Shown here in pieces: positions 3,935 through 56,131 of a DNA stretch of 64,000 bases. Under the pieces are notes generated by a model. It was given only the letters and a program-made list of their open reading frames with translations, ran no database searches and was not told where the DNA came from. Position 1 is the stretch's first letter. Each line of letters opens with the position of its first letter. Both the position numbers and the translations under genes were made by a program. Origin of the DNA: Candidatus Gastranaerophilales bacterium (lineage in GTDB: Bacteria; Cyanobacteriota; Vampirovibrionia; Gastranaerophilales; Gastranaerophilaceae); contig CALUWF010000001.1 in the NCBI GenBank assembly GCA_944324405.1, positions 124,001-188,000 of the forward strand, in the 5' to 3' direction.

Positions 3935-3946
3935 CAGGCTTTTTAG

Positions 3947-11390: not shown

Positions 11391-11433
11391 AAAAACCGGC
11401 GCAGAGAGTATGGTTACATCTGCGCCAGTTTTA
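11391..11433. terminator. Bidirectional terminator between rpsA and fliI
   Basis: GGCGCAGA (11398-11405) pairs with TCTGCGCC (11419-11426), and the stem extends past one mismatch through AAAAC/GTTTT. On the minus strand it is followed by a run of Ts. The right arm is made of the last fliI codons, so the coding end of fliI forms half of the terminator. Confidence 0.8.
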
Positions 11434-12751
11434 TAATCTCATCCACACTTGTTTGATAGTCCGTTTTATCATCTGTCGGCTGAATTAAATACCCCTCAAT
11501 TTTGTCCATAAGCGAAATTGCTTTATCTGTCAGAGGGTCTGAGCCGCGCTGATAAGCGCCGATATTTATTAAATCCTCATTTTTGGCATAACTTGCAAGC
11601 AGCGCACGGATTTTGCCTGCCGCACTTTTGTGCTCTTTTGATACAATATTATTCATAACCCGTGAAATGCTCTGCAAAACATCAATCGCGGGATAGTGAT
11701 TTTTATGCGCAAGAGCACGCGAGAGCATAATGTGCCCGTCTAAAATGCTCCTTGCAGTATCAGACACAGGCTCATTAAAATCGTCACCTTCAACAAGCAC
11801 GGTATATAGCCCCGTTATTGTGCCGTATTCATTACAGCCCGCACGCTCTAAAAACTTTGGCATAAGCGCAAAAACGGAAGGTGTATATCCTCTTGTGGCA
11901 GGCGGCTCGCCGACTGCAAGCCCGACTTCTCTCTGCGCAAGGGCAATACGCGTTACGCTATCGAGCATAAAAAGAACGTCCCTGCCTTTGTCCCTAAAAT
12001 ATTCGGCAATTGCACATGCCACAAACGCCGCTTTTATTTTGACCAGAGAGGGCTGCTCGGAAGTTGCAACAACGACAACGGAGCGTTTCATGCCCTCAAC
12101 TCCCAAAGTGTGTTCTATAAATTCTCTTACCTCTCTGCCGCGTTCTCCGATTAGGGCAATAACATTTATATCGGCTGATGTATTTTTTGCCATCATGGCA
12201 AGAGTTGTGCTTTTGCCCACGCCCGAGCCTGCAAAAATACCCATTCTCTGACCCTTGCCGACGGTAATTAATCCATCAATAGCCCTTATGCCGAGGCTTA
12301 GCGGCTCATCAATAGGCTTTCTTTTAAGCGGGTTGATGATTTTTCCTCCCGTCGAATAGTATTTATCCGCACTTATTTCGCCAAGAGAGTCAATCGGATT
12401 TCCAAGACCGTCTAAAACACGCCCCAAAAGAGAATCGGACACTTTTACTTTCATATCAGAGCCCGTATTTACAACTTTAGCACCCGCCTTAAGCCCGTCA
12501 ATCGAGCCGAGCGGCATTAAAAGGACTCTATCCTCTCTAAAACCCACAACCTCACAGAATATCGGCTCCATATCATCCGAGATTATATGACACAAATCCC
12601 CGATGGATGACTCCGGGCCGTCAGCTTCGATTATAAGTCCTATAATCTCAACAACCCTGCCGATTTTAACAATGGGATTTATTTCATTTACGATTTTTTG
12701 ATAAGGCGAAAAATCAAATTTATCCAATGCCGCTATCCTCACCATCATCAT
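11414..12751 (-). CDS. fliI: Flagellum-specific ATPase FliI
   Basis: The 445-residue protein is the hexameric ATPase of the flagellar type III export apparatus, acting at the cytoplasmic base of the motor. Walker A is AGSGVGKST at 174-182 and Walker B is DVLFMLDSVTR; the FliI/YscN signatures ALIGERGREVREFIE and GEPPATRGYTPSVFA are present. The start lies in a row of ATG codons inside the fliH end (32-base overlap) and is not certain by a few codons. It is the last gene of flagellar operon 1; fliJ, usually next, is not here. Confidence 0.95.
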   Translation of the reverse strand: MMMVRIAALDKFDFSPYQKIVNEINPIVKIGRVVEIIGLIIEADGPESSIGDLCHIISDDMEPIFCEVVGFREDRVLLMPLGSIDGLKAGAKVVNTGSDMKVKVSDSLLGRVLDGLGNPIDSLGEISADKYYSTGGKIINPLKRKPIDEPLSLGIRAIDGLITVGKGQRMGIFAGSGVGKSTTLAMMAKNTSADINVIALIGERGREVREFIEHTLGVEGMKRSVVVVATSEQPSLVKIKAAFVACAIAEYFRDKGRDVLFMLDSVTRIALAQREVGLAVGEPPATRGYTPSVFALMPKFLERAGCNEYGTITGLYTVLVEGDDFNEPVSDTARSILDGHIMLSRALAHKNHYPAIDVLQSISRVMNNIVSKEHKSAAGKIRALLASYAKNEDLINIGAYQRGSDPLTDKAISLMDKIEGYLIQPTDDKTDYQTSVDEIIKLAQM

Positions 12752-13658
12752 CGGATGAATTCAGCTCTTTTAAAAATTCGTTTGATATTTGATTTAGCTG
12801 CTGTTCAAAACTCAAGTCCAGACGCTCTTTTGGGGTTTGAATAATTAAAGTGTCATCCGGAAATTTTGAATTGTAGGTAAGTTTTATATTTCTCAATTTG
12901 TCTATATCAATATCATCCGCGCAATTTTCATCGGGACTTAAATTCCCGCTTAAAACTTCATTTAAGAGCCTTGCATACTTTTCACTTAAGATAAGTTCAA
13001 TGTTTTCTTTATCACTTAAAAGCGACAGCGACTTAGAAACAAGCGAAGCGACGGATTGAGCATCAACAGAATTTATGGAGATTTTTCTTGCAATCATAAG
13101 CACAAGATTAACAATCTCGTCTTTTGAACTTTTTAATATTTTTTGCTTCATCTCAAAAGTATTTTTTACTATCTCATCCATACCGTGAATTTTTTGGAGC
13201 ATTTCTTCTTTTATTTTATTCACTCCGTCTGAATATCCTGCCTCATATCCTTCTTTTGCGCCCTGCTGTGAAGCTTCTTCTTTTATTTTTTGCGCCTGCT
13301 CACTTGCTTCATCAAGCGTGGCTTTTGCTTGCTGCTGCGCCTGCTCTAAAATTTCATTTGCATTTTTATTTAAAATATCAACCTCGGCGCTTGCTTTACT
13401 TCTTATTTCTTGCGCCTCTTGAGATGCGGCATTTATAATCTCCTCAGATTTTGCATTTGCTTCATCAAGGATTTTTTGCGCTTTATCCTGCGCTTCTTTT
13501 TCAAGAAGATTGATTTTGTTTAAAACTTCATTTGAAATTACGGGCTCTTCTTTTTGCTCTTCTTCCTCCCGTTCTTTTTCTTCAAATTCTTCATTTGTAA
13601 AAAAATCCACGACAACTAAATTGCCAGGATTTATTCTATCCGATGTAATTCTACTCAA
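12720..13658 (-). CDS. fliH: Flagellar export stator-like protein FliH
   Basis: The 312-residue protein has an N-terminal glutamate-rich segment (about 20-42), a long alanine/glutamine/glutamate coiled coil (about 45-150) and a conserved C-terminal domain (KDEIVNLVLMIARKISINSV, LSLLSDKENIELILSEKYA) typical of FliH/YscL. FliH binds and restrains FliI and links it to the C-ring. The family is poorly conserved, so the call rests on the C-terminal part and on its place between fliG and fliI. It overlaps fliG by 8 bases. Confidence 0.87.
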   Translation of the reverse strand: MSRITSDRINPGNLVVVDFFTNEEFEEKEREEEEQKEEPVISNEVLNKINLLEKEAQDKAQKILDEANAKSEEIINAASQEAQEIRSKASAEVDILNKNANEILEQAQQQAKATLDEASEQAQKIKEEASQQGAKEGYEAGYSDGVNKIKEEMLQKIHGMDEIVKNTFEMKQKILKSSKDEIVNLVLMIARKISINSVDAQSVASLVSKSLSLLSDKENIELILSEKYARLLNEVLSGNLSPDENCADDIDIDKLRNIKLTYNSKFPDDTLIIQTPKERLDLSFEQQLNQISNEFLKELNSSDDDGEDSGIG

Positions 13659-14673
13659 TTAACTCATCTCCGGCGCCGTCACGTGCGACAACAATTTCTC
13701 CGTTTTGTTCAAGCATTCTTATAATGCCCACAATTCTTGATTGTACTTCCTGAACTTCACGCGCTCTAACCGGTCCCATATATTCCATATCTTCAAGCAA
13801 AATCGCCTGAGCGCGCTCTGACATGTTACGAAGAATTTTATCTTTAACATCATCCCTTGAACCTTTAAGAGAAAGCGCAAGGTCTTTTGTATCCACTTCG
13901 CGAAGAATTCTCTGAATTGCCCTGTCATCAAGGTTAACAATGTCCTCAAATACAAACATAAGACTTCTTACATCTTCTGCCAATTGTGGAGTTTCTTCCT
14001 CGAGCATTTCTATAACGTTTTTCTCTGTCGCGCGGTCTGTTCTGTTTAAAATGCTTGCAAGAGTTTCGGTACCGCCAGCTTTTGAGAAATCCTGTATAAC
14101 AACATTTGAAAATTTGCTTTCGACAATTTTTTCAACTTCCGAGATAATCTCAGGGTTTGTTGTTTCCATCTGTGCAATTTTAAGCGACACTTTATGCTGC
14201 ACATTTGGCGGAAGGCAGTTTAAAACTTTTGCGGATTGTTCAGGCTTTAAATAGGCAAGAATAAGCGCTATTAGCTGCGGATTTTCATTTTGAAAAGAAG
14301 TTGCAAGCTGAATTGGGTCTGCATCGTTAAAAAATTGGAAAGGATTTGAGTTTAAAATTGTAACCAGCCTATCAAGGATTTTATTTGCCTGCTCGGTACC
14401 GTATGCCTTCTCTAAAAGGGTTTTAGCATAGTTCATGCCGCCTGAAGCGAGCATGGAATTTGCCTGAAAAATAGTATGGAATTCATCCACAATTGCTTCA
14501 AGCGTTTCAATGGGCAGTTTGTTCATTGCCGCAATATCAAGCGTAACCTGCTCCAGGACATCGTCATCCGTTATATTTTTCATAATCTCCGAAGCCGCAG
14601 CAGGCCCGAGCACTATCATAAGTGCTGCAACCTTTTGTGAATGTGTCATGGCTTCTATTTGTATCGGGAGCAT
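13651..14673 (-). CDS. fliG: Flagellar motor switch protein FliG
   Basis: The 340-residue protein covers all three FliG domains. The N-terminal domain that binds FliF begins MTHSQKVAALMIVLGPAAAS, the middle domain carries NENPQLIALILAYLKPEQSA (the EHPQ-type motif reads ENPQ), and the C-terminal torque domain carries LALSLKGSRDDVKDKILRNM with the charged residues that face the stator. FliG is the rotor ring that converts ion flow to rotation. It lies 29 bases downstream of fliF, as in most flagellar operons. Confidence 0.96.
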   Translation of the reverse strand: MLPIQIEAMTHSQKVAALMIVLGPAAASEIMKNITDDDVLEQVTLDIAAMNKLPIETLEAIVDEFHTIFQANSMLASGGMNYAKTLLEKAYGTEQANKILDRLVTILNSNPFQFFNDADPIQLATSFQNENPQLIALILAYLKPEQSAKVLNCLPPNVQHKVSLKIAQMETTNPEIISEVEKIVESKFSNVVIQDFSKAGGTETLASILNRTDRATEKNVIEMLEEETPQLAEDVRSLMFVFEDIVNLDDRAIQRILREVDTKDLALSLKGSRDDVKDKILRNMSERAQAILLEDMEYMGPVRAREVQEVQSRIVGIIRMLEQNGEIVVARDGAGDELIE

Positions 14674-14702
14674 TTCTCTTTAATTCTTCTCTTTTTTATT
14701 AC

Positions 14703-16445
14703 TTACTCTTTAATGTATGATGTTAAGAGCCTTGCCGCATCTTGCGGATCGCTCATAATAATATCTGTTATCTCGGCGCGTTTTTTATCTACAACCGAGG
14801 TAAACACAGGCTCGTCGTCCTCTGCCTGTTCAAGGTAATTTGTATCGACGTTATCATTATTGCCCATCATTATATAAGGGTCAAATCCGTTGAATTGGTT
14901 TTCTTCCTGGTAAACAGGTTTTGGCGGTTCGGGCTTTTTAAATATTGAAGAAAATGTCGTAAGACCCAATATTCCAAGCACCAATACCACAATAAGAGGC
15001 GCAACATTTGAAAATATAAATTCCATCATTTCCATAATTTTTGCGTACCTTTCCTCGTTTAATGTTTGAAGCTGCTCTGCTTTATCTATTCCCATAAATT
15101 TAAGACTTGAAACATTAACAACATCCCCGCGCGTCACATCCATACCTGCAGCGGCTATTACAAGATTTTTGATATCATCTTCTTCTTCCTGAGTTAAAAT
15201 TTTATTAACGGCAACCGCAACGGATAAACGCACAACAGAGCCAGGGGCATAGACAACCTGTTTGATTTCTTTTGTAACCGCGTAATTTACGGCATTTTTC
15301 TCTTTTTCATAGCTCAATTCTCTTCCGCGGACTTTATCGGTTACATTTCTTGCGTTTTCATCCGCATCGCTTATGCCGCTTTGCTCCTCAACAACTGTCA
15401 TGACATTTTGTGTCTGCGGATTTTGAGCATTTGCGTTTTGAATATTAACGTTTTGCCCGCCCTGCTGCAATTGCTGATTTTGACCTGTAGGATTATCAGG
15501 GTCAAGCGCCACTTCATCTTTTTTTAAAACAATTGGCTGAGGTTTTTTATAAGTTTCTTTTTCGCTTTGCTGCCCTAAAATTACGCCGCTTTGTGTGCCA
15601 TTTGCAGGAACATAGCTTTCTATTGTTGAGCGGGTGGAGTTAAAATCCATAACCGCGCTGACCTGAACAGACACATTATCTTTGCCCATAATGGTTTCAA
15701 GAGTGTCTTTTATTTTCTTTGCGGCTTCTTTTTCAAAGGCGCTTCTGTAGCTTTGCATATCGGTATTATTTTTTGCAACATCTTCGCTCAGGGCATTTCC
15801 GTTTTGATCAGTTAAAAACACCCTGTCATTTGTAAGACGCGGAACGGAATATGCCACAAGGTTTTTAATTGCAAGGATTTGCGACGGTTTTAGCCTGTAG
15901 CCCGGCTCAAGTATTAAAATGACGCTGGCACTTGGTTCTTCATCATCATCCGAAAACACGGAACGCTCAGGCTCGGCAAGCTGTACGCGCGCTTTTTGAA
16001 TACCGTTAATTTTTTCAATCGAGCGGGTAAGCTCTCCTTGAAAAATTCTCTGTTTTGTAAGTTTATTTTTAAAATCGGTCGAGCCTAATTGTAAATCGTC
16101 AAGAAGCTCAAAACCGGGGGTAGAGTCTTTTATAAGGTCATTTTCCGCAACAAAAATTCTTAAATCTTCTTTATCTTGTTCGCGCACTAAAATCGCCGAC
16201 TTGTCGTCGGACAATTTAAAGGCATAGCCGCTTTTTTTAAGACTTTCACTGATTGCAGCCACATCATCACGCGACAGGTCGGAATACAAAACAGACCAAT
16301 TAGGCTCTGTTGCTTTAAAAATAAAGTAAATACAAACAACCATTGCAACGACAAGAAGTGCGCATATGACAAATTTTTGGTTCAAATCAAATTTGTCCCA
16401 AATCTTTTTAATATCAAGCGCCATCGCTTTTAGGTGTTCGTTCAC
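14703..16445 (-). CDS. fliF: Flagellar MS-ring protein FliF
   Basis: The 580-residue protein forms the membrane ring of the basal body. It has a first membrane helix at about 25-45 (FVICALLVVAMVVCIYFIF), ring-building motifs (LYSDLSRDDVAAISESLKKS, RIFQGELTRSIEKINGIQKA, QLAEPERSVF), a proline/glutamine-rich periplasmic insert at about 310-360, a second helix near 474-498 (SNVAPLIVVLVLGILGLTTF) and a C-terminal FliG-binding tail ending in DPQDAARLLTSYIKE. Its length and order are usual for the family. Eighty bases without a gene separate it from fliE. Confidence 0.96.
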   Translation of the reverse strand: MNEHLKAMALDIKKIWDKFDLNQKFVICALLVVAMVVCIYFIFKATEPNWSVLYSDLSRDDVAAISESLKKSGYAFKLSDDKSAILVREQDKEDLRIFVAENDLIKDSTPGFELLDDLQLGSTDFKNKLTKQRIFQGELTRSIEKINGIQKARVQLAEPERSVFSDDDEEPSASVILILEPGYRLKPSQILAIKNLVAYSVPRLTNDRVFLTDQNGNALSEDVAKNNTDMQSYRSAFEKEAAKKIKDTLETIMGKDNVSVQVSAVMDFNSTRSTIESYVPANGTQSGVILGQQSEKETYKKPQPIVLKKDEVALDPDNPTGQNQQLQQGGQNVNIQNANAQNPQTQNVMTVVEEQSGISDADENARNVTDKVRGRELSYEKEKNAVNYAVTKEIKQVVYAPGSVVRLSVAVAVNKILTQEEEDDIKNLVIAAAGMDVTRGDVVNVSSLKFMGIDKAEQLQTLNEERYAKIMEMMEFIFSNVAPLIVVLVLGILGLTTFSSIFKKPEPPKPVYQEENQFNGFDPYIMMGNNDNVDTNYLEQAEDDEPVFTSVVDKKRAEITDIIMSDPQDAARLLTSYIKE

Positions 16446-16527
16446 TTTTTAAATATCCCTGATTTTTTAGTATGTTTACTACAGTATTTTAGACTTTTTT
16501 AGCGTTTAATTCAATTTGTTAAGCTTT

Positions 16528-16998
16528 TTAAACTCTTAAATTTTTAAATTCGTTGTATGCATTTACCGCCTGGTTTCTTAATTGGATAGCCATTTGCATT
16601 GCAAGGGTAGACTTTTGAGCGGCAATCATAACTTCATGCACACTTATATCGCCGCCTGCGGCAAAAGTTTCCATGGCATCTTCGGCTGCCTTTTGGGTAG
16701 CGCTCAAATTATTTATTCCGCCGGATATCCCTTTCCCGATATCGCGCGCCATAAGAGCTGTTTCAGAGAGATTTTCAATCTTTTGCGCATTTATTGCATC
16801 GACTCCCAAAAATTCAACCGAGCCTTTTAATTTTTGCGGCTCTTTTGTATTTTGAGGTTCATTTGATGTCAGCGAATTAAAAATCTCATTAAAATCCGAC
16901 GCATCATCAATCTGTTTATCGAAATTTTTAATGCTGTTATCAAAACTTTTATTAAAACTATCTATCGAAGCTATATTTGTATTAATTTCAAAACTCAT
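16528..16998 (-). CDS. fliE: Flagellar hook-basal body protein FliE
   Basis: The 156-residue protein ends with the FliE signature, GGDISVHEVMIAAQKSTLAM followed by QLRNQAVNAYNEF. FliE joins the MS ring to the rod. The N-terminal 70 residues form an asparagine/aspartate-rich extension absent from typical FliE proteins, which are about 100 residues long. It follows flgC by 12 bases in the flgB-flgC-fliE order found in most flagellated bacteria. Confidence 0.93.
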   Translation of the reverse strand: MSFEINTNIASIDSFNKSFDNSIKNFDKQIDDASDFNEIFNSLTSNEPQNTKEPQKLKGSVEFLGVDAINAQKIENLSETALMARDIGKGISGGINNLSATQKAAEDAMETFAAGGDISVHEVMIAAQKSTLAMQMAIQLRNQAVNAYNEFKNLRV

Positions 16999-17010
16999 TT
17001 TTTATTTGCC

Positions 17011-17505
17011 TTATATTTGAAGAGCGCTTTGTATCATTGTTTTTGTGGTTTGCGCTATGGTAACATTTGCCTCGTATGCCTTTGAAGCATTTACCATATT
17101 AACCATCTCCTCTACCACATTAACGTTTGGAAGGGTTACCATACCTTCTTCATCGGCATCGGGGTGTGTCGGGTCATATACCATACGATAAGGATTTTCA
17201 GACTCTCTTATCTCATCCACCATAACGCCCTGCGCCATTCCGTCTTCTTCAAAAACCACTCTTCCTCTTAAATAAGGGCCGTTTATCAAATCCATTTGAA
17301 CATCGTGCGAGCCTGTCGGCATGGCGGGACGAAGGGAGTCTTTATACACCGCTTTAAAAGTAACTTCTTTTTTTGTATAGACTTCTCTTTCACCTTTTGC
17401 GTTTCTTGTAGTGTTGGCATTTGCAATGTTTGATGAAACGGTGTCCATCATAACCCTCTGCGCGTGCATGCCCGAGCCTGCTATATCAAAAATATCAAAA
17501 CTCAT
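17011..17505 (-). CDS. flgC: Flagellar proximal rod protein FlgC
   Basis: The 164-residue rod protein shows the N-terminal flagellar rod motif (DTVSSNIANANTTRNAKGE) and the conserved C-terminus (VNVVEEMVNMVNASKAYEAN then VTIAQTTKTMIQSALQI). These terminal helices form the coiled coil that polymerises into the rod. It sits 11 bases after flgB and 12 before fliE. Confidence 0.95.
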   Translation of the reverse strand: MSFDIFDIAGSGMHAQRVMMDTVSSNIANANTTRNAKGEREVYTKKEVTFKAVYKDSLRPAMPTGSHDVQMDLINGPYLRGRVVFEEDGMAQGVMVDEIRESENPYRMVYDPTHPDADEEGMVTLPNVNVVEEMVNMVNASKAYEANVTIAQTTKTMIQSALQI

Positions 17506-17516
17506 TTAATACTCTC

Positions 17517-17981
17517 CTAAATTTGTCCTCTTATGACACTTTGAAGCCCCTGAAACGACCTTGACATAAGGTTTGTAAGGATTGTGTACTGTGTACCGGT
17601 TTTTGCCTCGTCCATCATTTCCGCTTCAATGTTTACATTGTTGCCATCAGCGCTTATAGGGTCTGAATAATCCCCTATAATCTCGGGCGAAAAACCGTTA
17701 TCTACTGAGCTTCTTAAAAAGGCAATCTGCGCCGGGTCTTGTTTTTTAAGGGCTTCGACGGGATTTTCCACGATTTTTTGTGAATTTTGGACTTTTATGT
17801 GTTCTTTTAAGTCTTCCCGTTCAATCATCTCTTGAATTTGATCTTCAAAGGCAACGTCTTTTCTTTGATACCCCGGCGTTGTAGCGTTCACGGTATTGGC
17901 CGAAATGGCGCGCGAGCGCTCATAGAGTCCGTTTAGTGCAAGAGCTGCGATTTCACGTGTTCTGTTATTTATCAAATCCAT
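17517..17981 (-). CDS. flgB: Flagellar proximal rod protein FlgB
   Basis: The 154-residue protein has the FlgB N-terminus (ALNGLYERSRAISANTVNAT, then TPGYQRKDVAFEDQI) and a C-terminus that links to the next rod unit (NNVNIEAEMMDEAKTGTQYT). FlgB starts the rod above FliE. The gene follows the histidine kinase gene by 14 bases, so kinase, regulator and rod genes share one transcript. Confidence 0.94.
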   Translation of the reverse strand: MDLINNRTREIAALALNGLYERSRAISANTVNATTPGYQRKDVAFEDQIQEMIEREDLKEHIKVQNSQKIVENPVEALKKQDPAQIAFLRSSVDNGFSPEIIGDYSDPISADGNNVNIEAEMMDEAKTGTQYTILTNLMSRSFQGLQSVIRGQI

Positions 17982-17995: not shown

Positions 17996-19234
17996 TCAGC
18001 TTATTGCATTTTGCGAAAGAGGCACGGTAACAAGAAATTCCGTTCCTTCTTCGTCGCTTTTAACGAGTGAAATTGACCCGAGCTGGGCTGCGAGATATTT
18101 TCTGCAAATATTTAATCCCAAACCCCAGCCGTCTTTTTTTGTGGAAAAACCTTCCGTGAAGAGTTTTGTCCGTATTTCCTGCGGGATTTGTTCACCATGG
18201 TTTTTTATAAACACTTTTGCATATTTTTCATCCGCTTCGATTTTTATTTCAATTTCATCGTCTTGTGTTGATTCATCCGCGTTTTTTACAATATTATTTA
18301 TAACGGCGAAAAATCTTTCTTCATCAATAAAAACAACTGCTCTGCCTTTTATCTTATCTATAAATTTAATTCTGTTGTTTCTCTCCGGAAGAATTTTTTC
18401 AAATATTTCAATTGATGATTTTATGACCTCTCTTAAATCTTTCTCTTCGAAATTTAAATTGTCTGTCGCTCTCAAATCATCAAGCTGCAAGCGAATTAAA
18501 GAAAGGGATTTTTGAATAAGCCCGATATTTTTATCCTCACCCAGCTGCTTTTGAAGAATTTTTGCATATATATCAAGCACGCTCAGCTGATTTTTTATTT
18601 CATGGCAGCAATGGCGGATATTCGCATTTATTTCATCGTTTGTATTTTGTATTTGAAGCTTGTTAGCAAGGGCCTCCTGCTCTTTTAAATTAAATTCGTT
18701 TTCTTTTATGTTCTCATTGAGCATTTTTAAAACGTTATATATAGCATCATTCAAAAGGGCATTTTCACGGCGTTCCGGGCGATATGAATAAAATTTTTCA
18801 TCAAGATTAATTTTAAGCCTGTCTTTTACCGTTTCAAAAACCTCATTAACATCTTTTGAGTTAACTCTTATACACAGTTTTGTTTCTTCTTTATTATCAG
18901 TTTCCGAGTAATCCCAAATTAAAACCGCATTGTATCTGTGCGAAGTTATAATTACAAATTCCGTTTCAATAAAATCATCTTTAGAGATAATATCAAAGTC
19001 TAAAAAGCTGAACATTTCAACATTTGAGCAGTATTCCAATCTTTTTATAATGCCGTCTATACCGCTTGTATTTTTAAACCTTGTAAGAATTAATGACTTT
19101 GCATTATTTGAAGCAATAGGCTCCAGCAAACTGCGCAAAAGACCGTTAACAGTGTTTTTTGAAAACAGCTCTATATTTGTATCATATTCTGATTGAAAAA
19201 AACTCTTTAAGTTTTTTTTACCGTGTCTGTACAT
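17996..19234 (-). CDS. Soluble sensor histidine kinase at the head of flagellar operon 1
   Basis: The 412-residue protein has no membrane helix. The H box HEIKNQLSVLDIYAKIL places the phospho-His at residue 211; the N box is NNIVKNADES, and the ATP lid carries GFSTKKDGWGLGLNICRKYL. Residues 1-140 are an unrecognised input domain with alternating strands (EFVIITSHRYNAVLIWDYSE) that could be DICT-like, a sensor fold common in Cyanobacteria, but I cannot confirm this. It lies between the response regulator gene and flgB and probably gates flagellar assembly, in the way FlgS or FleS kinases do elsewhere. Confidence 0.85.
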   Translation of the reverse strand: MYRHGKKNLKSFFQSEYDTNIELFSKNTVNGLLRSLLEPIASNNAKSLILTRFKNTSGIDGIIKRLEYCSNVEMFSFLDFDIISKDDFIETEFVIITSHRYNAVLIWDYSETDNKEETKLCIRVNSKDVNEVFETVKDRLKINLDEKFYSYRPERRENALLNDAIYNVLKMLNENIKENEFNLKEQEALANKLQIQNTNDEINANIRHCCHEIKNQLSVLDIYAKILQKQLGEDKNIGLIQKSLSLIRLQLDDLRATDNLNFEEKDLREVIKSSIEIFEKILPERNNRIKFIDKIKGRAVVFIDEERFFAVINNIVKNADESTQDDEIEIKIEADEKYAKVFIKNHGEQIPQEIRTKLFTEGFSTKKDGWGLGLNICRKYLAAQLGSISLVKSDEEGTEFLVTVPLSQNAIS

Positions 19235-19280: not shown

Positions 19281-19991
19281 TTAGGCGATTTTTGCTTTTT
19301 TTCTTGCTCCAAAACCCTTGTTTATCGCATATAATACCGCCTGTGTTCTGTCATTTACCTGTAATTTTTGGAAAATGTTGTTAACGTGTGTTTTAACGGT
19401 TGTTTCAGAGATAAAGAGCTGCTGAGCCACGCCTTTGTATGTAATTCCTTCCGTTAAAAGCCCCAGAACCTCTTCTTCTCTGTTTGTCAGGTAGTTAAGC
19501 AGATTTTCTTCATCATCCTGAGCATTATATGTATTTTCATTTTTTTGTGCGGCTTGGAAATATTCAAAGAATTTAGAACAAAGAATTGAAGGAAGATAAA
19601 TTTTGCCCATTGAAACCTCATCAAGCGCACGGATTAGCTGGGCAGATGCCATTGTTTTTAAAATATAGCCTTTTGCGCCGATTTTCATTGCGCGGTAAAT
19701 TAAATCCGCATCATCATAGCCGGTGAGCGCTATTATTTTTGTTTTTAAACCGAGTTTTTCAATTTCCGCAATTGCGGTAATGCCATCGATTTCCGGCATA
19801 TTTATATCCATTAAAACAATGTCGGGCTGATATTTTTTAATAAGAGAAATTGCGACATTTACGTTTCCGGCATTTGCTATTACTTCATAATCCCCTTCAA
19901 GATTAATAAGTTCACGAATGCCCGAGGCATGATCATAATTATCATCCACGACAATAACTCTTGTTTTCCTTTTAAAATCAGCTCTTCTCAT
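19281..19991 (-). CDS. NarL/FixJ-type response regulator, first gene of flagellar operon 1
   Basis: The 236-residue protein has a receiver domain (RVIVVDDNYDHASGIRELI; acceptor Asp in IVLMDINMPEIDGITAI; conserved Thr and Lys in IIALTGYDDAD and AKGYILKTMAS) and a C-terminal LuxR-type helix-turn-helix (LTNREEEVLGLLTEGITYKG, ISETTVKTHVNNIFQKLQVN). It is the expected partner of the kinase encoded 46 bases downstream. GGAGGAG lies before the ATG. A promoter-like sequence shared with flagellar operon 2 lies about 75 bases upstream. Confidence 0.92.
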   Translation of the reverse strand: MRRADFKRKTRVIVVDDNYDHASGIRELINLEGDYEVIANAGNVNVAISLIKKYQPDIVLMDINMPEIDGITAIAEIEKLGLKTKIIALTGYDDADLIYRAMKIGAKGYILKTMASAQLIRALDEVSMGKIYLPSILCSKFFEYFQAAQKNENTYNAQDDEENLLNYLTNREEEVLGLLTEGITYKGVAQQLFISETTVKTHVNNIFQKLQVNDRTQAVLYAINKGFGARKKAKIA

Positions 19992-20331
19992 CTTCTCCTC
20001 CGCTATCCCTAATCTTTTTTGAACTTTTTACACTTAACGGGCTATTTTTTAAGCCCCCACAATTTGAATATACCCTCTAAAGTGTATTTCTTCATCAATT
20101 GAAAGGTTTAATTTTAGGGCATTTGGGGCGGATAAGAAGTATTAGATCCAAAGATTGAGAACAATGTCTTAAATCAAATTTTTGCGACATTTAGCGCGTT
20201 GTCAATCCTCCCGAAATTAAAAAAATATCCGATTATACAAATTTTCATCCATATAGACCAAAACAAATAAAAAAATTGCGTGTATTATATGCTTGATAGC
20301 AATTACGGAATAAATTCAGGAAATATAAACC
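19992..20331. other. Intergenic region between flagellar operon 1 and ATP synthase
   Basis: This 340-base AT-rich stretch holds no credible gene. It carries the flagellar promoter-like element at 20067-20099 (minus strand) and a weak hairpin in the regulator leader, GGGCT/AGCCC around 20040-20057. The ATP synthase promoter must also lie here, but I found no -35/-10 pair for it that I would defend. Confidence 0.6.
20067..20099 (-). promoter_or_regulatory. Promoter-like element of flagellar operon 1, shared with operon 2
   Basis: Read on the minus strand this is ATTGATGA, 14 bases, then GAGGGTATATT. The same two blocks occur 15 bases apart upstream of flagellar operon 2. GGGTAT matches the -10 type of group 3 sigma factors (SigB in Bacillus), and TGATGA lies 16 bases before it. 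A binding site for the operon's own response regulator is the alternative. Confidence 0.6.
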
Positions 20332-47608: not shown

Positions 47609-48523
47609 TTAAATGTAATTAAGAAGCGTTGCCTGCTGCATAATTGTAGCGCCCGCTTGTAATGAGGCCTGAAGGGCTGTTTGATATTTTATAAGATCTG
47701 TTGCAGCCTGCGCCATATCGGTATCTTGAAGGTTTGATCTCATTTCGGTAAGCCCTAAAGTTGCATTGTCGTTAATTGTGCTTGTGGCATCAAGCCTTTG
47801 CACCCTGCTTGAAATAACCGCCTGCGCATTTGTAACGTTTTTAATGCCGGCCTGAATGGGGTCAAGCATATCGCTTATCGCCTTTATATCCATATCAGGG
47901 TCTTTAAGCGCGTCATTTAGTTCCTTTAGGGTAGCAAAAATACCGTCTGTTTCATTGCCGAAAATTTCTTCGCCGTTTAAATTAAGCGGCATTGTAACAC
48001 CTTCGGATATTTCAATATTTCTTTCCCAATTGCCGTCTTGTGCGGTTCCGGAGTATGTTACATTTAAATCATCATCCAGAGCATAAGGAATACTTGAAGT
48101 ATTTGAGCCTGAGAAAATGTATTTGTCCTGATATTTTGTGTTTGCAAGCTGAGCGATTGTCCTTGTTCTTTGTTCAACTTCGCTCCTTATGGCCTCAAGG
48201 CTTTCAGCCGAGTTATAAGAGTTTGCCGCAGTGATTGTAAGTTCGTTAATTCTTTGTAAATTGTCCTGAATTAACCCCAAGGTATCATAAGACTGCGACA
48301 GTTCGTCTTTTGCTGTTTCAATATTTTTAGACCAATCATCAAGCTGTCCCAATTGCTTATTGTATTTCATAACCTTTGTACCGTCGGCCGGGTTTTGTCC
48401 GACAGAGGTAAGCTTTTTACCCGAGGTAATCTGCTCGTAAGTATTATAAAGCCCCGAAAGGTTTTTATTCATTGTGCTTAACATCAAGTTTGATGTCATT
48501 TGCGCCGTTACTCTTATACTCAT
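47609..48523 (-). CDS. flgL: Flagellar hook-filament junction protein FlgL
   Basis: The 304-residue protein is flagellin-like at both ends: SIRVTAQMTSNLMLSTMNKN and LSGLYNTYEQITSGKKLTSV at the N-terminus, and LQDTDMAQAATDLIKYQTAL followed by QASLQAGATIMQQATLLNYI at the C-terminus. The length of 304 and the place right after flgK separate it from flagellin, which is not in this window. It is the last gene of operon 2. Confidence 0.94.
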   Translation of the reverse strand: MSIRVTAQMTSNLMLSTMNKNLSGLYNTYEQITSGKKLTSVGQNPADGTKVMKYNKQLGQLDDWSKNIETAKDELSQSYDTLGLIQDNLQRINELTITAANSYNSAESLEAIRSEVEQRTRTIAQLANTKYQDKYIFSGSNTSSIPYALDDDLNVTYSGTAQDGNWERNIEISEGVTMPLNLNGEEIFGNETDGIFATLKELNDALKDPDMDIKAISDMLDPIQAGIKNVTNAQAVISSRVQRLDATSTINDNATLGLTEMRSNLQDTDMAQAATDLIKYQTALQASLQAGATIMQQATLLNYI

Positions 48524-48535
48524 GGTTTTTTATTC

Positions 48536-50080
48536 CTATTCGCCTAATGTAACAAGAAGTTGATAGATTTCATTTGCGGTGTTAAATACTCTTGCCGATG
48601 CTTCATATCCGCGCTGATATTTAATCATATCCGCCAATTCTTCATCGAGGTTAACCCCTGTTATGCTTTGAAGATTTGTCTGCTCGGATTCGTTTAATGC
48701 ATTTGCGGTATCAAATTTTCCCTTAATATCGCTTTGCTGCAAACCGACTTCACCGGCAAAATAAGTGAGAAAACCTTCAAATGTAACGTTGTTCGCACCG
48801 CCAAAAGTGCTCATTGTAATTTTATCTCTTAATTGAGCGGTTGCCACAATGTTATCCGTGTTTCCGACATTCTTTTCCCAGCCGTCGACTGCCGTGTCCA
48901 CCCTTGCGGTTGCTATTAAATTAGGATCGTCAATGACATTTTGATTAACACTTATGCTATCCGCCGTAATGGGATTGCCGAGGTTAAATATAGGCTCCGT
49001 TGAAGGGACAAGGATTTGTTCTCCCGTATTAGGATCTGTCCCAAGCGCCATAGCGCCAACTGTACCGTTTGTATAAGTCTGGGTATTGTTGACTTCTTGG
49101 GCAAACGTATTTGCAAGTTCGTCAATTTTGCCTCTCATGCCGCTTATTGTGATAAGCCCGTCATCTGAGGTGTTTACCATATCAAGGATTGCGCCGATTT
49201 GTCCGCCTTGCACCTCGCTGTTTGCATTAGAGAGCACCAAAGTACCGTCAAGCTTTTCAACCTGGACAATAGCGGGAGTTTGGGCATCGCCCGCAGTCAC
49301 ATTTAACTGTACAAGCTGATCAGCGCCGGAGATAAGTTTAACATCCCCCATTTTAACATCGACAGAACCGTTTTTATTGTATTCCACGTCTAAATCAACA
49401 TAAGCGGACAAATTGTTTAAAAGATTTTCTCTTTCATTCATAAGTCCGGTTGAATTATTTGCACCTTGAATAACAATTTGTTTGTTTAATTCGGCAAGCC
49501 TTTCAAGACCTTGGTTAAAGTCTTGTACGCTCATATAAATTTCACTGTTTTCAATTGTTGCGCCCTGCTGCCAATTTCCGACAAGTTCTTCCTGCAAATT
49601 ATCAAGCGAATTTGCAATTGAATTAAATTTCATAGCCACGCTTTGTGCGCTTTCAATGTAAATTCTTCTTGCGGAAGGGTCTGTGGGATTAGCACTAAGA
49701 TTTTGCGCAGCGGAGAAAAACTCTTCAAAACTCGCCTGAAGGCCGTTTTCGCCAAGTTCATCCGTTATGTCTCCAAGCCGCGTCATTAAAGAATCAAGAG
49801 TGTAATAATATTGCGCATCCGAATTGGCGCCGCGTGCTGAATTTGCGGCGGCATTATTTGCATAGCTTGTAATCTGCGAAATTTGTGCGCCGTTTAACCC
49901 TCTTATATTTGCATAAACGTTATTACCGTAGCTGTATGTCGGATTTGTTGCAAAGTCGGCACGCAGCTTAATGTATCCGTCTACGTTCATGTTTGCAATA
50001 TTATGCGACACGACGGCAAGTGCGTGTTGATAATTGTTCATGGATTCTCTGCTGATATTCATCGTCTGTCCGATTGTCAT
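48536..50080 (-). CDS. flgK: Flagellar hook-associated protein 1 FlgK
   Basis: The 514-residue protein begins with the rod/hook N-terminal motif (YQHALAVVSHNIANMNVDGY) and ends with the FlgK C-terminal helix (LNESEQTNLQSITGVNLDEE, then MIKYQRGYEASARVFNTANE). It forms the first junction layer between hook and filament. AAGGAG lies before the ATG. It is 29 bases downstream of flgN. Confidence 0.95.
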   Translation of the reverse strand: MTIGQTMNISRESMNNYQHALAVVSHNIANMNVDGYIKLRADFATNPTYSYGNNVYANIRGLNGAQISQITSYANNAAANSARGANSDAQYYYTLDSLMTRLGDITDELGENGLQASFEEFFSAAQNLSANPTDPSARRIYIESAQSVAMKFNSIANSLDNLQEELVGNWQQGATIENSEIYMSVQDFNQGLERLAELNKQIVIQGANNSTGLMNERENLLNNLSAYVDLDVEYNKNGSVDVKMGDVKLISGADQLVQLNVTAGDAQTPAIVQVEKLDGTLVLSNANSEVQGGQIGAILDMVNTSDDGLITISGMRGKIDELANTFAQEVNNTQTYTNGTVGAMALGTDPNTGEQILVPSTEPIFNLGNPITADSISVNQNVIDDPNLIATARVDTAVDGWEKNVGNTDNIVATAQLRDKITMSTFGGANNVTFEGFLTYFAGEVGLQQSDIKGKFDTANALNESEQTNLQSITGVNLDEELADMIKYQRGYEASARVFNTANEIYQLLVTLGE

Positions 50081-50109
50081 AAAAAAACTCCTTTTTTGTG
50101 TGCCGTATT

Positions 50110-50514
50110 TCAGGCTTCTTCCGTGATTGAAGAAATATCAAGAGTGTTTTCCTGATTTTTCTTACCCAAATGATTATAGTCCGCATTTTTTGCGGATGTT
50201 ATGTTTAAAATTCCCTCAAATATCTTATTTATAACATTTAAGGAATGATTTATTAACACTTCGTTATTTTTTTGTAATTGTCCTATCTGCGCGGTTATTT
50301 TGTTAAGTTCGTCCTTTTCTTCGCGCGTCAGGCTGAATTTGTCCTTTTGTTCGTATATATTTTTTACTTCATTGTAAGCACATATTAAATTTTCATCACA
50401 AACGGCAAGAGTTTCTAAATCTTTCTTAATCAATGCCTGCTGCTTTTTTTCAAGAAGATTTTTTATTGTCAGATATATTTCAAGTATTTTTTCAAAACTT
50501 ATTTGTTCATCCAT
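50110..50514 (-). CDS. flgN: FlgN-like flagellar export chaperone
   Basis: The 134-residue protein is almost entirely helical: ILEIYLTIKNLLEKKQQALI, CDENLICAYNEVKNIYEQKD and LNKITAQIGQLQKNNEVLIN, the pattern of FlgN, which escorts FlgK and FlgL to the export gate. FlgN is weakly conserved; the call rests on length, helical pattern and the place directly before flgK. TATAAT lies 6 bases before the ATG, preceded by GGGGG, so a late promoter inside the operon is possible. Confidence 0.78.
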   Translation of the reverse strand: MDEQISFEKILEIYLTIKNLLEKKQQALIKKDLETLAVCDENLICAYNEVKNIYEQKDKFSLTREEKDELNKITAQIGQLQKNNEVLINHSLNVINKIFEGILNITSAKNADYNHLGKKNQENTLDISSITEEA

Positions 50515-50530
50515 TTAAATATTATACCCC

Positions 50531-50818
50531 CTAGGCGCTGTAGTCCGCAAGTACACTTCTTCCATACGTCAGAGCATATTTAATATCATCATCCGTTATC
50601 TCTTCGCCTATTGATTGCGCGGTTTGTTTAATCTCTTCTATATTAACCCCTTCAAAAATGTCATTTTGCCCGATTAGCCTTATATCATCTTCTTTTGTGT
50701 CATTATTTTGCACCTGAGATTCATTTTTAAAATTTTGGGCCGATTTTAGCGCATAATTATAAAAAATCCTGTTAAGTGCCTGCGTGTCTGTTGTTTGATT
50801 AGTATTTGCTATATTCAT
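50531..50818 (-). CDS. Candidate anti-sigma factor FlgM (by position and C-terminal pattern)
   Basis: The 95-residue protein has a polar, probably disordered N-terminal half rich in N, Q and T and a C-terminal half with two amphipathic helices: VNIEEIKQTAQSIGEEITDD and DIKYALTYGRSVLADYSA. The pattern I-x-x-I-K, a turn with G-E, D-D-x-I and a last helix resembles the sigma-binding part of FlgM. The order flgJ, this gene, flgN, flgK, flgL is where flgM usually stands. Similarity is low and eye-level only; it may instead be an unrelated flagellar accessory protein. Confidence 0.5.
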   Translation of the reverse strand: MNIANTNQTTDTQALNRIFYNYALKSAQNFKNESQVQNNDTKEDDIRLIGQNDIFEGVNIEEIKQTAQSIGEEITDDDIKYALTYGRSVLADYSA

Positions 50819-50821
50819 TTT

Positions 50822-51205
50822 CTATCCCGCCACATCGGTTGTAGTGTTTACAATGTCGCCTTCTTCAAGAGGGACTGATTTTTCCATCTGGGCATAAAGC
50901 TGCTTTGCAAAGCCTATGTTTGATGTCGGCGAGTTTGCAACATCTCTGCCTATTTGATTAAAAAATATCGATTTAAAATTTTCCATATATTTTGACTCGC
51001 CAAACATAGAGCCTTCTCTGTCTATTGTTTTATCCATCTGGGTGAGCATTTTTGAAACAAGGATTGCTTCGAACTCTTTTGCAACTTTTTTTAACTGCTC
51101 TCTTTGCGTGCCTTGCGACCTGACCGTGTTGATAAAGTCGTAATCAGCGCCCTGAGAGTAGCTTTGCGGTATATAATTTTGTGTTGAATAAAAATTTTCA
51201 GTCAT
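50822..51205 (-). CDS. flgJ: Rod-binding protein FlgJ, N-terminal domain only
   Basis: The 127-residue protein is the rod-capping domain: QLKKVAKEFEAILVSKMLTQ, then SKYMENFKSIFFNQIGRDVA and NIGFAKQLYAQMEKSV. The C-terminal muramidase domain found in E. coli-type FlgJ is missing, and a separate lytic transglycosylase is encoded at the head of the same operon. It follows flgI by 9 bases. Confidence 0.88.
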   Translation of the reverse strand: MTENFYSTQNYIPQSYSQGADYDFINTVRSQGTQREQLKKVAKEFEAILVSKMLTQMDKTIDREGSMFGESKYMENFKSIFFNQIGRDVANSPTSNIGFAKQLYAQMEKSVPLEEGDIVNTTTDVAG

Positions 51206-51214
51206 TTTTTATCC

Positions 51215-52336
51215 TTAAATTATCTGCAATTCCGCTTGCAGGCTGCCTGACATCCTGAGCGCCTGCAAAATTGCAATTAAATCCGTAGGCGTTACCCCTA
51301 TTGAATTAAGTGCCGCAACAAGTTCGCCAAGGGTCGAATTTGCCTTCATTTCAACAAGGCTTCCTTCTTTCTTTTCAATATCAATCTGAGCATTTGTTAC
51401 GCCGACTGTTTGACCTTGCGAAAAGGGTGCGGGCTGCGATACATCGTTATACGCCTGAATTGTAACCGTTATGCCGCCATGGGCAACCGCTGCGGGCATA
51501 AGTCTTGCATCCGCGCCTATTACAACTGTTCCCGTTCTTTCGTTTATTATTACCTTGGCACGCTCTCTCGGGGCGCTTACGCGTATATTTTCAAGAATGG
51601 ATATAAAAGCAATTCGATCGGATAAATATCTTTGCGGTATCATAACTTTTACACTGCCGCCGTCAAGAGCGATTGCCTCAGATACATTTCTTGAGATAAT
51701 ATCTGCAATCTGAGCTGCCATGGTGTAATCTGCCTGATCTAAAATGAGCGTAAGAGAATTTTCATCTCCGATGGCGCTTATAATATCTCTTTCAACAATT
51801 GCACCGCCGGGGACTCTGCCTGTTGTTGTAATTGCCGTTCTTGAGCTTGAACCTGCCGCTTTTGCACTTGCTCCGCCAACGGAGAGCGGGCCTTGTGCAA
51901 CAGCTACAATCTCACCGTTTGGCGCTCTCAGCTGGGTTTGTACAAGCACGCCGCCTTCAAGGCTTTTGGCGTCCGCCATGGCGGATACTACAACATCAAC
52001 CCTGTCGCCGTTTTTTGCAAAGGGCGGAATAGTCGCCGTTACAATAACAGCGGCTGAGGCACCTTTTTGGATATAGTTTGACTGGTCAATAACCGTACCC
52101 AGATTTTGCAGTAAAAGTTGGTTTGTCATCTGAGTGTGACGGGAGTTATCACCCGTATTTTGCAGACCGACAACAAGCCCGTAGCCTACTACCTGGTTAT
52201 CTCTGACGCCTTTTATATGGGTTATGTCTTTAATTCTCACGCTTTGCGTGCTTATTGCGCTTGCACTGCCGCAGAAAGAAAGACAAAGCAGAAATATTAA
52301 AGCTGTTGAAAATAATTTTTTAAACAATTTTATCAT
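51215..52336 (-). CDS. flgI: Flagellar P-ring protein FlgI
   Basis: The 373-residue protein has a signal peptide (KKLFSTALIFLLCLSFCGSA) and the FlgI pattern: RIKDITHIKGVRDNQVVGYG, LVVGLQNTGDNSR, VSAMADAKSLEGGVLVQTQL and the C-terminal LVAALNSIGVTPTDLIAILQ. It forms the rod bushing in the peptidoglycan and implies a diderm envelope. Confidence 0.96.
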   Translation of the reverse strand: MIKLFKKLFSTALIFLLCLSFCGSASAISTQSVRIKDITHIKGVRDNQVVGYGLVVGLQNTGDNSRHTQMTNQLLLQNLGTVIDQSNYIQKGASAAVIVTATIPPFAKNGDRVDVVVSAMADAKSLEGGVLVQTQLRAPNGEIVAVAQGPLSVGGASAKAAGSSSRTAITTTGRVPGGAIVERDIISAIGDENSLTLILDQADYTMAAQIADIISRNVSEAIALDGGSVKVMIPQRYLSDRIAFISILENIRVSAPRERAKVIINERTGTVVIGADARLMPAAVAHGGITVTIQAYNDVSQPAPFSQGQTVGVTNAQIDIEKKEGSLVEMKANSTLGELVAALNSIGVTPTDLIAILQALRMSGSLQAELQII

Positions 52337-52341
52337 CCTTA

Positions 52342-52956
52342 CTAGAAAATATATCTCATGAAACGATACAGTATACCTTCGTTTTGACCTCTTGAAACAG
52401 TACCTGCTCCGCTCATTGCAAATTGCAGATTGGCAACCTGATTTGAGCTTATTTCGCCCTGTTGGTCAATCCATCTCGGGTCAACAATGCCGGATACCAG
52501 CAAGTCTACACGCTCATTAGCATTTACAAGGGTCTTTTTGCCCTGTACAAGGAGATTTCCGTTTGGCAGAAGCTGTATAACCTGTACTGCGACTCTGTCT
52601 TGAATACCAAGGCTCCTTTGGGTGTTTGTGCTGCCTGAAACGGAGATTGTTCCGCTTGTATTGTTAAGCGCACCCTTTAAACTCGTTTTAAATATTGTAT
52701 TTATCGCCCCTGTTAAATTTTCAAGAATGCTTGACGTTTTTTCCGTTTCATAAACACCCGAGTCCGTCAGGGTCGGCACTTCATCTATTACAATTGTTAC
52801 AAGGTCGCCGACATTCCTTGCACGCACCGAACTGTAGAGCGGTCTTGGCTCAATAAAGCTTGATTGCGTCGCATTTAGCGAAAAAAGGCTCTCTGCCTGT
52901 GCACAGGCACAAAACATGCTTATAAAACAAAATGTAACTGCTAACTTTTTTATCAT
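52342..52956 (-). CDS. flgH: Flagellar L-ring protein FlgH
   Basis: The 204-residue protein begins with a signal peptide (KKLAVTFCFISMFCACAQA). Family motifs include SSVRARNVGDLVTIVIDEVP and the C-terminal VDPRWIDQQGEISSNQVANL. FlgH is usually a lipoprotein; a CAC sequence near residue 17 could be the lipobox cysteine, or cleavage may be after AQA. It forms the outer-membrane ring, so the cell has an outer membrane. Confidence 0.93.
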   Translation of the reverse strand: MIKKLAVTFCFISMFCACAQAESLFSLNATQSSFIEPRPLYSSVRARNVGDLVTIVIDEVPTLTDSGVYETEKTSSILENLTGAINTIFKTSLKGALNNTSGTISVSGSTNTQRSLGIQDRVAVQVIQLLPNGNLLVQGKKTLVNANERVDLLVSGIVDPRWIDQQGEISSNQVANLQFAMSGAGTVSRGQNEGILYRFMRYIF

Positions 52957-52968
52957 CCTTTTATCCTT

Positions 52969-53688
52969 TTAAATTTTTACCGTTGCTTCGTTTTTGTTGC
53001 TTACAACAGCGCGGTAGACTTTGTTGTATTTTGAACTTTTAACTAAAATATTATCTCCGATACTGCCTTCTTTTAAAGCTTTTCCGTCTATTGTTATCCT
53101 TAAATTTCCCATTGATTCAAAAACTATGTTAATTGTCGAATCTTTAAGGACATCGGGTTTTGATTTTACATAGCTTTTCAATACGGGCGAGCCTTTCGGT
53201 ATATTCCTTGAAGCGACAAGCGCGCTTTTTGGATTTGTGTCTATTGTTTGCCCTATATATTCCCCGATTTGCGCTCTTTTTATTGCGGTGTTTGAGCGGC
53301 TTATGTTCTGTTCTCTTGTAATCGGATTAATTGCACACAAGACATCTTTATACACAAGGGTGTTTACACTTATCGGAAAAGACTTAACAAAAGTTTCGCC
53401 GTCATAAATGCTCACTCTTTTTAAATCTCTGCTCAAAAAACCGTTCGTGTTTGACTCTACTTTTATTGTTGTTTTATTTTTTGTCGTGATGTCCCCCTGC
53501 GGCATATTTAAAATTTTAACCTCAATTTCTCCGCCGCCAAGAGGCTCAATTTGTTTTTTGGTTAAAACTTTTATCTGCTCAATAATTTGCGCTTCAATTT
53601 CTTCCCTGCCAAGCGTCTGCGAAAATACGGGCGCACTCAGCGCAAGGAATAAAAAAAGTATTAAAATTTTAGAGCAAAAGTTTTTCAT
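52969..53688 (-). CDS. flgA: P-ring assembly chaperone FlgA
   Basis: The 239-residue protein has a signal peptide (SKILILFLFLALSAPVFS), a variable N-terminal half and the FlgA/SAF C-terminal domain: ALVASRNIPKGSPVLKSYVK, NIVFESMGNLRITIDGKALK and EGSIGDNILVKSSKYNKVYR. FlgA guides FlgI into the P-ring in the periplasm. It lies between flgG and flgH, 3 bases after flgG. Confidence 0.92.
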   Translation of the reverse strand: MKNFCSKILILFLFLALSAPVFSQTLGREEIEAQIIEQIKVLTKKQIEPLGGGEIEVKILNMPQGDITTKNKTTIKVESNTNGFLSRDLKRVSIYDGETFVKSFPISVNTLVYKDVLCAINPITREQNISRSNTAIKRAQIGEYIGQTIDTNPKSALVASRNIPKGSPVLKSYVKSKPDVLKDSTINIVFESMGNLRITIDGKALKEGSIGDNILVKSSKYNKVYRAVVSNKNEATVKI

Positions 53689-53691
53689 AAA

Positions 53692-54477
53692 TTATTGCAG
53701 ATTGTTTGTTACCTGTAGAATGTTTGAAGCTGATGTGATGATTTTTGAATTTGATTCAAATGCGCGCTCGGCCTTGATGAGCGCTATCATTTCTTCAACC
53801 GTTTGCACGTTTGAACCTTCAACGAAATACTGTTGAATTGTTCCGTAGCCGTCCTGACCTGCAATACCCGGAACAGGCACGCCCGAGGCGGGTGTTTCAA
53901 GGTAGAGATTGTGCCCGACGGCTGCAAGGCCGGAGTTGTTTTGAAATTTTACTATCTGAAGCTGTCCGACTTGTGTTTGTTCGGGCTGGGCGCCGACTTT
54001 AACGGACACCATGCCCTGCGGAGTTATGGTTATTTCTTTTGTATTTTGCGGGATTTGAATAGGAGGCATAAGCTGATAGCCGTCTGTTGTGGTTAAAGAA
54101 CCGTTTGCGTCCATTTTAAAAGAACCGTCACGGGTGTAGGCAATTGTACCGTCGTCAAGAGTTATTTGAAAAAAGCCGTCGCCTTCTATTGCCACATCAA
54201 GGTTTCTGCCTGTTGATTGCATAATGCCCGTTGTAAAAATTCTCGATGTTGCGGCAGTTTTGACACCAAGACCGATTTCAACGCCGACGGGCTGATAAGT
54301 TCCCTGCCCCATTTGAGCGCCCGAAGCTTTTTCAACCTGGTAAATTAAATCCTGAAATTCGGCACGAACTTTTTTGTATCCGTAAGTGTTGACGTTTGCC
54401 ATATTGTTGGCTATAACGTCAAGATTGGTTTGTTCTGCTATCATGCCTGTTGCGGCTGTGTGTAATGACCTTAGCAT
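53692..54477 (-). CDS. flgG: Flagellar distal rod protein FlgG
   Basis: The 261-residue rod protein starts with RSLHTAATGMIAEQTNLDVI and NNMANVNTYGYKKVRAEFQD and ends with EGSNVQTVEEMIALIKAERA and FESNSKIITSASNILQVTNN. It contains the FlgG middle-region motif GDGFFQITLDDGTIAYTRDG. Length matches E. coli FlgG at about 260. Confidence 0.96.
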   Translation of the reverse strand: MLRSLHTAATGMIAEQTNLDVIANNMANVNTYGYKKVRAEFQDLIYQVEKASGAQMGQGTYQPVGVEIGLGVKTAATSRIFTTGIMQSTGRNLDVAIEGDGFFQITLDDGTIAYTRDGSFKMDANGSLTTTDGYQLMPPIQIPQNTKEITITPQGMVSVKVGAQPEQTQVGQLQIVKFQNNSGLAAVGHNLYLETPASGVPVPGIAGQDGYGTIQQYFVEGSNVQTVEEMIALIKAERAFESNSKIITSASNILQVTNNLQ

Positions 54478-54493
54478 TTATTTAATTCTCCTC

Positions 54494-56039: not shown

Positions 56040-56073
56040 AATATACCCTCAGCTTATATATATTCTCATCAAT
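56040..56073 (-). promoter_or_regulatory. Promoter-like element of flagellar operon 2, shared with operon 1
   Basis: On the minus strand this reads ATTGATGA, 15 bases, then GAGGGTATATT, and ends about 53 bases before the first gene. Both blocks are identical to those upstream of flagellar operon 1. GGGTAT is the -10 type of group 3 sigma factors. Confidence 0.6.
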
Positions 56074-56131
56074 CAAATGATGGAAATTTTTTAAAAAAAT
56101 AAGCCTTTGGATTTAAATTTCAATACATGTT

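Follow-up and report, generated by a model that had tools for sequence, protein, structure and literature searches.

A promoter element shared by flagellar operons across the Gastranaerophilales, most likely switched on by a NarL/LuxR-type response regulator

In the 64,000-nucleotide stretch of DNA from a Candidatus Gastranaerophilales bacterium that was analysed here (the window), the same two-block element stands before each of two flagellar operons, and its conservation argues that it is a real promoter, found before flagellar genes order-wide. Most likely a response regulator switches the element on, and no special sigma factor is needed to read it. We give a probability of roughly 70% to an activator-dependent promoter at which a NarL/LuxR-type response regulator (RR), the product of operon 1's first gene, would drive its own operon together with operon 2.

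Results and discussion

Two copies of the element in one genome

The two copies and the operons behind them are arranged as follows.

20067..20099, minus strand: element, operon 1 copy, ATTGATGA-N14-GAGGGTATATT (pattern match)
19281..19991, minus strand: NarL/LuxR-family RR, operon 1 gene 1, proposed activator of both promoters
17996..19234, minus strand: histidine-kinase-like protein (HATPase_c), operon 1 gene 2, likely RR partner
11414..17981, minus strand: remainder of operon 1, FlgB, FlgC, FliE, FliF, FliG, FliH and FliI
56040..56073, minus strand: element, operon 2 copy, ATTGATGA-N15-GAGGGTATATT (pattern match)
47609..55986, minus strand: operon 2, SLT transglycosylase, FlgF, FlgG, FlgA, FlgH, FlgI and rod-binding protein, then, in its 3' part, two small ORFs, FlgK and a flagellin-domain protein (FlgL-like)

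A distance of 75 nt separates the operon 1 copy from the RR start codon (ATG), and the operon 2 copy lies 53 nt before the SLT gene. The pattern ATTGATGA-N14/15-GAGGGTATATT was matched twice in the window, against 0.00 matches in shuffles, and the whole 1.80 Mb genome holds exactly these two copies, one before each flagellar operon, where chance would give none; reversed-pattern controls over the same 1.80 Mb gave no match. A profile of the element likewise found only two good sites in this genome, with E values of 1.7e-7 and 1.8e-5, the next match standing at 0.07. As the spacers differ (N14 and N15), the two copies do not stem from a recent duplication. The initial annotation had proposed that the same two-block element heads both flagellar operons and that it is a promoter-like element specific to these operon heads, and both proposals are borne out.

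Conservation across the order

A search for the exact pattern over 98 relatives confirmed the element in the genus, where it was found at one or both operons in 14/14 relatives. It misses the remainder of the order because GGGTAT changes there. Sequences upstream of two genes, the RR ortholog and the SLT gene of operon 2, were collected from the order, and a sequence-only profile of 61 positions, R1, was trained on 53 of them. Named RR relatives, at 92-96% identity, come from Candidatus Gastranaerophilales MAGs, including Candidatus Galligastranaerophilus, which places the window among the non-photosynthetic relatives of Cyanobacteria, in agreement with the initial annotation. Training sequences included, R1 matched upstream of the RR gene at 67/67 loci and upstream of operon 2 at 40/40 order-level loci; at three operon 2 loci of other orders it found no element (3/3). 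One genome, G047, carries operon 2 with the element while its RR was not found, operon 1 being absent from that assembly.

Since 53 sequences had trained R1, 63 further named genomes were taken as a held-out set. Their RR upstream regions contained GATG-N19/20-nTANNNT in all 63 cases, and an R1 match at E <=0.05 in the right place in 60. The core conserved order-wide is AAYC...GATGA-N19/20-GTANNNT, accompanied by a separate upstream dyad, TARAYC-N4-GRTYTA. Another pattern, GATGAN{15,21}GGTAATAT, was rejected, as it matched operon 1 of some relatives only and otherwise gave chance hits.

The downstream block and the -10 region

Each copy ends in a -10-like hexamer.

20067..20072, minus strand: -10-like hexamer TATATT (TANNNT), operon 1, preceded by G at 20073
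56040..56045, minus strand: -10-like hexamer TATATT, operon 2

From this hexamer, the operon 1 transcript start is predicted at about 20060 and that of operon 2 near 56033. Column statistics reduce the downstream block order-wide to GTANNNT, the preceding Gs being variable: elsewhere in the order it reads TTGTAGTAT, TAGTAATTT, AAGTATATT, ATGTAATAT and others, and six copies of the genus have TATATA as the hexamer. In about 85% of promoters TA follows a G; GTA is immediately preceded by GG in 30/97 (23/40 for operon 1, 6/38 for operon 2 and 1/19 for flagellum-less RR promoters), and GGTAA occurs in 11/97. The GGGTAT -10 named in the initial annotation thus holds for the window copies and as a feature of the genus, and fails for the order as a whole. 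TANNNT was present in 97/97 anchored promoters and in 63/63 held-out RR upstream regions, figures that are weakened by an anchoring rule that favoured the T, A and last T of the -10 and by the same requirement in the held-out set.

GTANNNT has the pattern of a sigma-70-type -10 (T-12, A-11, T-7), to judge by its constant positions; SigJ promoters, too, retain the A and T at these positions, so that the pattern does not decide between sigma factors. No TTGACA-like -35 was found at 16-18 bp from the -10, TTGATG standing 20-21 bp from TANNNT instead. Lack of such a -35 is expected of activator-dependent promoters.

The stretch ATAGTGTAG around the predicted start (window 20050-20066) is strongly conserved in the RR promoters of the order and weakly in the operon 2 promoters.

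Two dyads upstream of the -10

Two inverted repeats lie upstream of each -10 hexamer.

20095..20110, minus strand: proximal dyad TAAACC-TTTC-AATTGA, operon 1, putative RR operator at about -43
56069..56084, minus strand: proximal dyad TCCATC-ATTT-GATTGA, operon 2
20143..20158, minus strand: distal dyad TCAATCTTTGGATCTA (consensus TARAYC-N4-GRTYTA), operon 1, putative RR operator
56100..56115, minus strand: distal dyad TAAATCCAAAGGCTTA, operon 2

In the upstream block GATG is invariant and preceded by T or C, and a conserved left arm, T.AAYC, lies 5 bp further upstream, covering -14 to -9 if counted from the G of GATG. In operon 2 the region from -14 to +1 forms a dyad, TNNAYC-N4-GRTNGA. Its symmetry centre of -6.5 ranks first for operon 2, first also for the RR promoters of flagellum-less genomes, and second for operon 1. 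From the operon 2 dyad and its centre, ATTGATGA consists for the most part of the proximal dyad's right arm, plus TGA. This centre, 6.5 bp upstream of GATG, falls at -42.5/-43.5 if TANNNT occupies -12 to -7. In the operon 1 copy the left arm is perfect and the right arm, which lies within the ATTGATGA block, is imperfect; covariation of the proximal arms within sequences is weak (z <2). GATG is also more constant than dyad symmetry requires, and together with the weak right arm of operon 1 this means that sigma may in addition touch GATGA directly, or that GATGA may be a half-site in its own right. A GATGA-N5-TCATC dyad in the spacer, with GATGA as its left arm, was considered and discarded, since this dyad occurs in some sequences only and its columns are unconserved.

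The distal dyad is often perfect (TAGACCATATGGTCTA). It exceeded the threshold in 31/31 operon 1 promoters against 2.8 expected, in 31/32 operon 2 promoters against 3.1, and in 15/15 flagellum-less RR promoters against 1.7. Its place is fixed within each class, at -54.5 in RR promoters and at -37.5/-38.5 in operon 2; in this genome the centres lie 54.5 bp (operon 1) and 37.5 bp (operon 2) upstream of the G of GATG, the latter 31 bp from the proximal centre. Dereplicated held-out promoters had the dyad in 54/54 cases against 5.2 expected, again with a fixed centre (-54.5/-53.5). As it played no part in the profile or in finding the promoters, the distal dyad constitutes independent support. The spacing between the two dyads varies by promoter (about 23, 31 and 48 bp), not all of these being whole helical turns.

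The response regulator and its promoter

The RR consists of a receiver domain (PF00072, 93.6 bits) and a GerE/LuxR helix-turn-helix (HTH) domain (PF00196, 71.5 bits), its closest solved structures being LiaR/VraR and NarL. Orthologs (58-96% identity) were found in 78/81 genomes of the order, with conservation highest in the HTH (mean 0.91, against 0.76 in the receiver) and at 0.94 in the recognition region. Twenty flagellum-less genomes (no FlgI) keep the RR and the histidine kinase with the same promoter and no flagellar gene behind it. In another order, two genomes carry an RR homolog (56-57% identity) outside any flagellar operon, and upstream of these genes GATGA-N20-GTATAGT or the same with CTACAAT, plus dyads, is found in the same arrangement. 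The promoter thus accompanies the RR gene wherever it goes, which is most simply read as autoregulation.

It is quite unlikely that the architecture is as described and the dyads are bound by a regulator other than the RR behind it. Each genome does encode many NarL-type and other regulators, among them RR paralogs of 30-38% identity, but the element stands before the RR gene everywhere, after loss of the flagellum too and in another order; moreover, the distal dyad has the 6-N4-6 inverted-repeat shape expected of a NarL/LuxR-family RR site, and the near-invariant HTH parallels the conserved site.

The kinase gene that follows the RR gene encodes about 220 aa, comprising the ATPase part, in many flagellum-less genomes (L171-L190), and about 400 aa in flagellated relatives; the sensor part seems to have been lost together with the flagellum. 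A second flagellar-type export locus, L261 (G000:C3:15000-24500; about 2540-9130, minus strand), holds genes for an SLT protein, a short FliE (110 aa), FliF, a FliG-like protein, FliH and FlhA. The short FliE is present in nearly all members of the order, also where FlgI is absent, so part of a flagellar export system outlasts loss of the flagellum.

The sigma factor

Eight sigma-70-family hits were obtained in this genome, including a SigF/SigB-type and a FliA/WhiG factor, of which the former is encoded in the window.

58976..59794, minus strand: SigF/SigB-type group 3 sigma factor, not favoured as the element's reader

This gene lies 13 bp behind the methionyl-tRNA synthetase gene (59808-61361, minus strand), with which it probably shares a transcript.

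The initial annotation had proposed that the element would be a SigF-type promoter, and the conservation across the order does not support this. Under such a reading, which we consider unlikely, ATTGATGA would be the -35 and GGGTAT the -10 of a group 3 promoter, read by the factor encoded at 58976-59794. The window copies do resemble SigF and SigJ promoters in their G-tract before a TA-containing -10, the SigJ J-Box being GGGaAtacT (PMC6495340), and a related sigma gene lies 3 kb from operon 2; GGGTAT fits the SigB -10, and the G so often found before TA also counts for a group 3 factor. The cyanobacterial SigF promoter of Synechocystis has TAGGC at -32 and GGTAA at -12 (PMC2758279), and the GGTAA is seen in operon 1 of many relatives, but the TAGGC was found in 0/97 promoters. 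Nor is the G-tract conserved in the order, given the minority of promoters with GG before GTA, and the SigF gene adjoins operon 2 in this genus only. Other orders of the class also have SigF, yet no significant match to the profile was obtained in them.

Both SigF and FliA are near universal in the order, so that their presence is uninformative as to co-occurrence with the flagellum, and the absences of SigF are informative. No SigF ortholog hit was obtained in G017, G018, G022, G034, G045, G052, G071, G074 and G077, and the element is kept in 9/9 of these, although assembly gaps are possible in six of the nine; the strongest cases are G022 (98% complete, flagellated), G034 (95%) and G017 (93%). 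A group 3 promoter would also fail to account for the AAYC left arm or for the distal dyad, and the upstream block is better accounted for as the right arm of a dyad shaped like the distal one.

A variant sigma-28 promoter is very improbable. FliA is a flagellar sigma factor and the genome encodes a true FliA/WhiG sigma (TIGR02479, 240 bits), but TAAA-N15-GCCGATAA is absent at the elements, with no strict match in the window, and the -10 block GTANNNT is at odds with CGATAA. FliA occurs in the order with or without a flagellum, and G077 (88% complete), which lacks both a FliA and a SigF hit, carries the element before each of the two operons. Downstream of the element stand early basal-body genes, which usually do not depend on FliA.

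A further reading, which we regard as doubtful, treats GATGA-N19/20-GTANNNT as a distinct class of promoter, a composite site read jointly by the RR and a dedicated alternative sigma factor. The factor would not be SigF itself in all species; it would genuinely contact GATGA as a -35, and the RR dyads would do no more than gate the promoter. With SigF and FliA fitting poorly, the most economical account is a sigma-A type factor at a promoter whose -35 is weak and whose activator sits near -43, and the sigma factor is probably of the housekeeping type.

Proposed mechanism and further targets

From the sequence elements, their conservation and spacing, the membership of the regulon and the constant presence of the RR, we infer binding, activation, sigma factor and start along the following lines. 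The RR, as a dimer, would bind the distal dyad TARAYC-N4-GRTYTA and also the weaker proximal dyad TAAAYC-N4-GRTTGA, in which the ATTGATGA block forms the right arm. Bound at about -42.5/-43.5, the RR would adjoin sigma region 4 and RNA polymerase with a sigma-70/A-type factor would be recruited to the TANNNT -10, the -35 hexamer being dispensable. The RR would in this way activate its own operon (RR-HK-FlgB-FlgC-FliE-FliF-FliG-FliH-FliI) together with operon 2 (SLT-FlgFGAHIJ-FlgKL), and in some relatives also motA-motB-fliL-fliM, flgJ-flgN-flgK, fliJ-fliK-flgD and fliA.

Beyond the training promoters, R1 matches were found before motA-motB-fliL-fliM (G067), fliJ-fliK-flgD (G053), fliE-fliF (G076), fliA (G017), SLT-flgF (G074) and a rod-binding/flgJ-FlgM-like-FlgN-FlgK cluster (G039). 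No distal dyad was recognisable at the extra motA, flgJ, fliJ and fliA matches. In the genome under study the fliM and fliA neighbourhoods have no element, and the lack of a match in the fliM region means that not every flagellar gene is under its control. R1 also matched, in six genomes including flagellum-less ones, before a gene near rimO for a secreted or membrane protein without a Pfam match, and 5/6 of these promoters have a distal dyad at p <0.02, which makes the protein a candidate non-flagellar target of the RR. These proteins (L192, L195, L196, L198, L200 and L201) measure 150-440 aa, with rimO-like neighbours in some; their distal dyads are centred at -28.5 to -30.5, with one at -56.5, in both flagellated and flagellum-less species. 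The remaining profile matches, in L194, L203, L209 and L210, look like chance.

Comparison with known systems

The ComA box of Bacillus subtilis, bound by a NarL-family RR, is TTGCGG-N4-CCGCAA with a second, degenerate repeat downstream (PMC4797271). The arrangement proposed here shares with it the NarL-family RR, the kinase-RR pair, the 6-N4-6 inverted repeat as main site and a second, weaker site between the main site and that of the polymerase. The half-site here is TAAACC, in contrast, the regulon comprises flagellar operons and the RR itself, and the putative second site is inverted whereas that of ComA is a direct repeat.

In Bacillus and Listeria the DegS-DegU pair provides a NarL-family RR that acts on flagellar genes, with SwrA or other partners, at a fla/che promoter. 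The RR proposed here would likewise act on a flagellar operon; unlike DegU, its gene heads a basal-body operon and the core element is common to two or more operons. LuxR-box class II promoters have a dyad at about -42.5, and class II sites of NarL/LuxR-family RRs are centred near -41.5 to -43.5. If TANNNT occupies -12 to -7, the element would resemble them in a putative dyad for a LuxR-type HTH that overlaps the -35 region; it differs in half-site sequence and in its input, inferred to be two-component instead of a quorum signal.

Conclusions

The two main genome papers report flagella and contain no promoter or sigma analysis (PMC3787301, PMC4040986), and a search of the literature on flagellar regulation in Melainabacteria/Vampirovibrionia returned nothing relevant. 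The searchable literature likewise yielded no description of a flagellar promoter of this shape, in line with the initial annotation, and for those relatives of Cyanobacteria that are flagellated and do not photosynthesise, no regulator of flagellar genes appears to have been described. Were the composite site true, these bacteria would have a flagellar hierarchy without a master regulator of the FlhDC, FleQ or CtrA type; a kinase-RR pair that persists after loss of the flagellum would drive it. Under the preferred reading, an RR-activated promoter, a likely master regulator can be named across a hard-to-grow order, along with the operator it would use, the core of its regulon and predicted transcript starts. 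As the RR and its own promoter survive loss of the flagellum, its regulon must include something else, and further targets can be searched for with the same profile.
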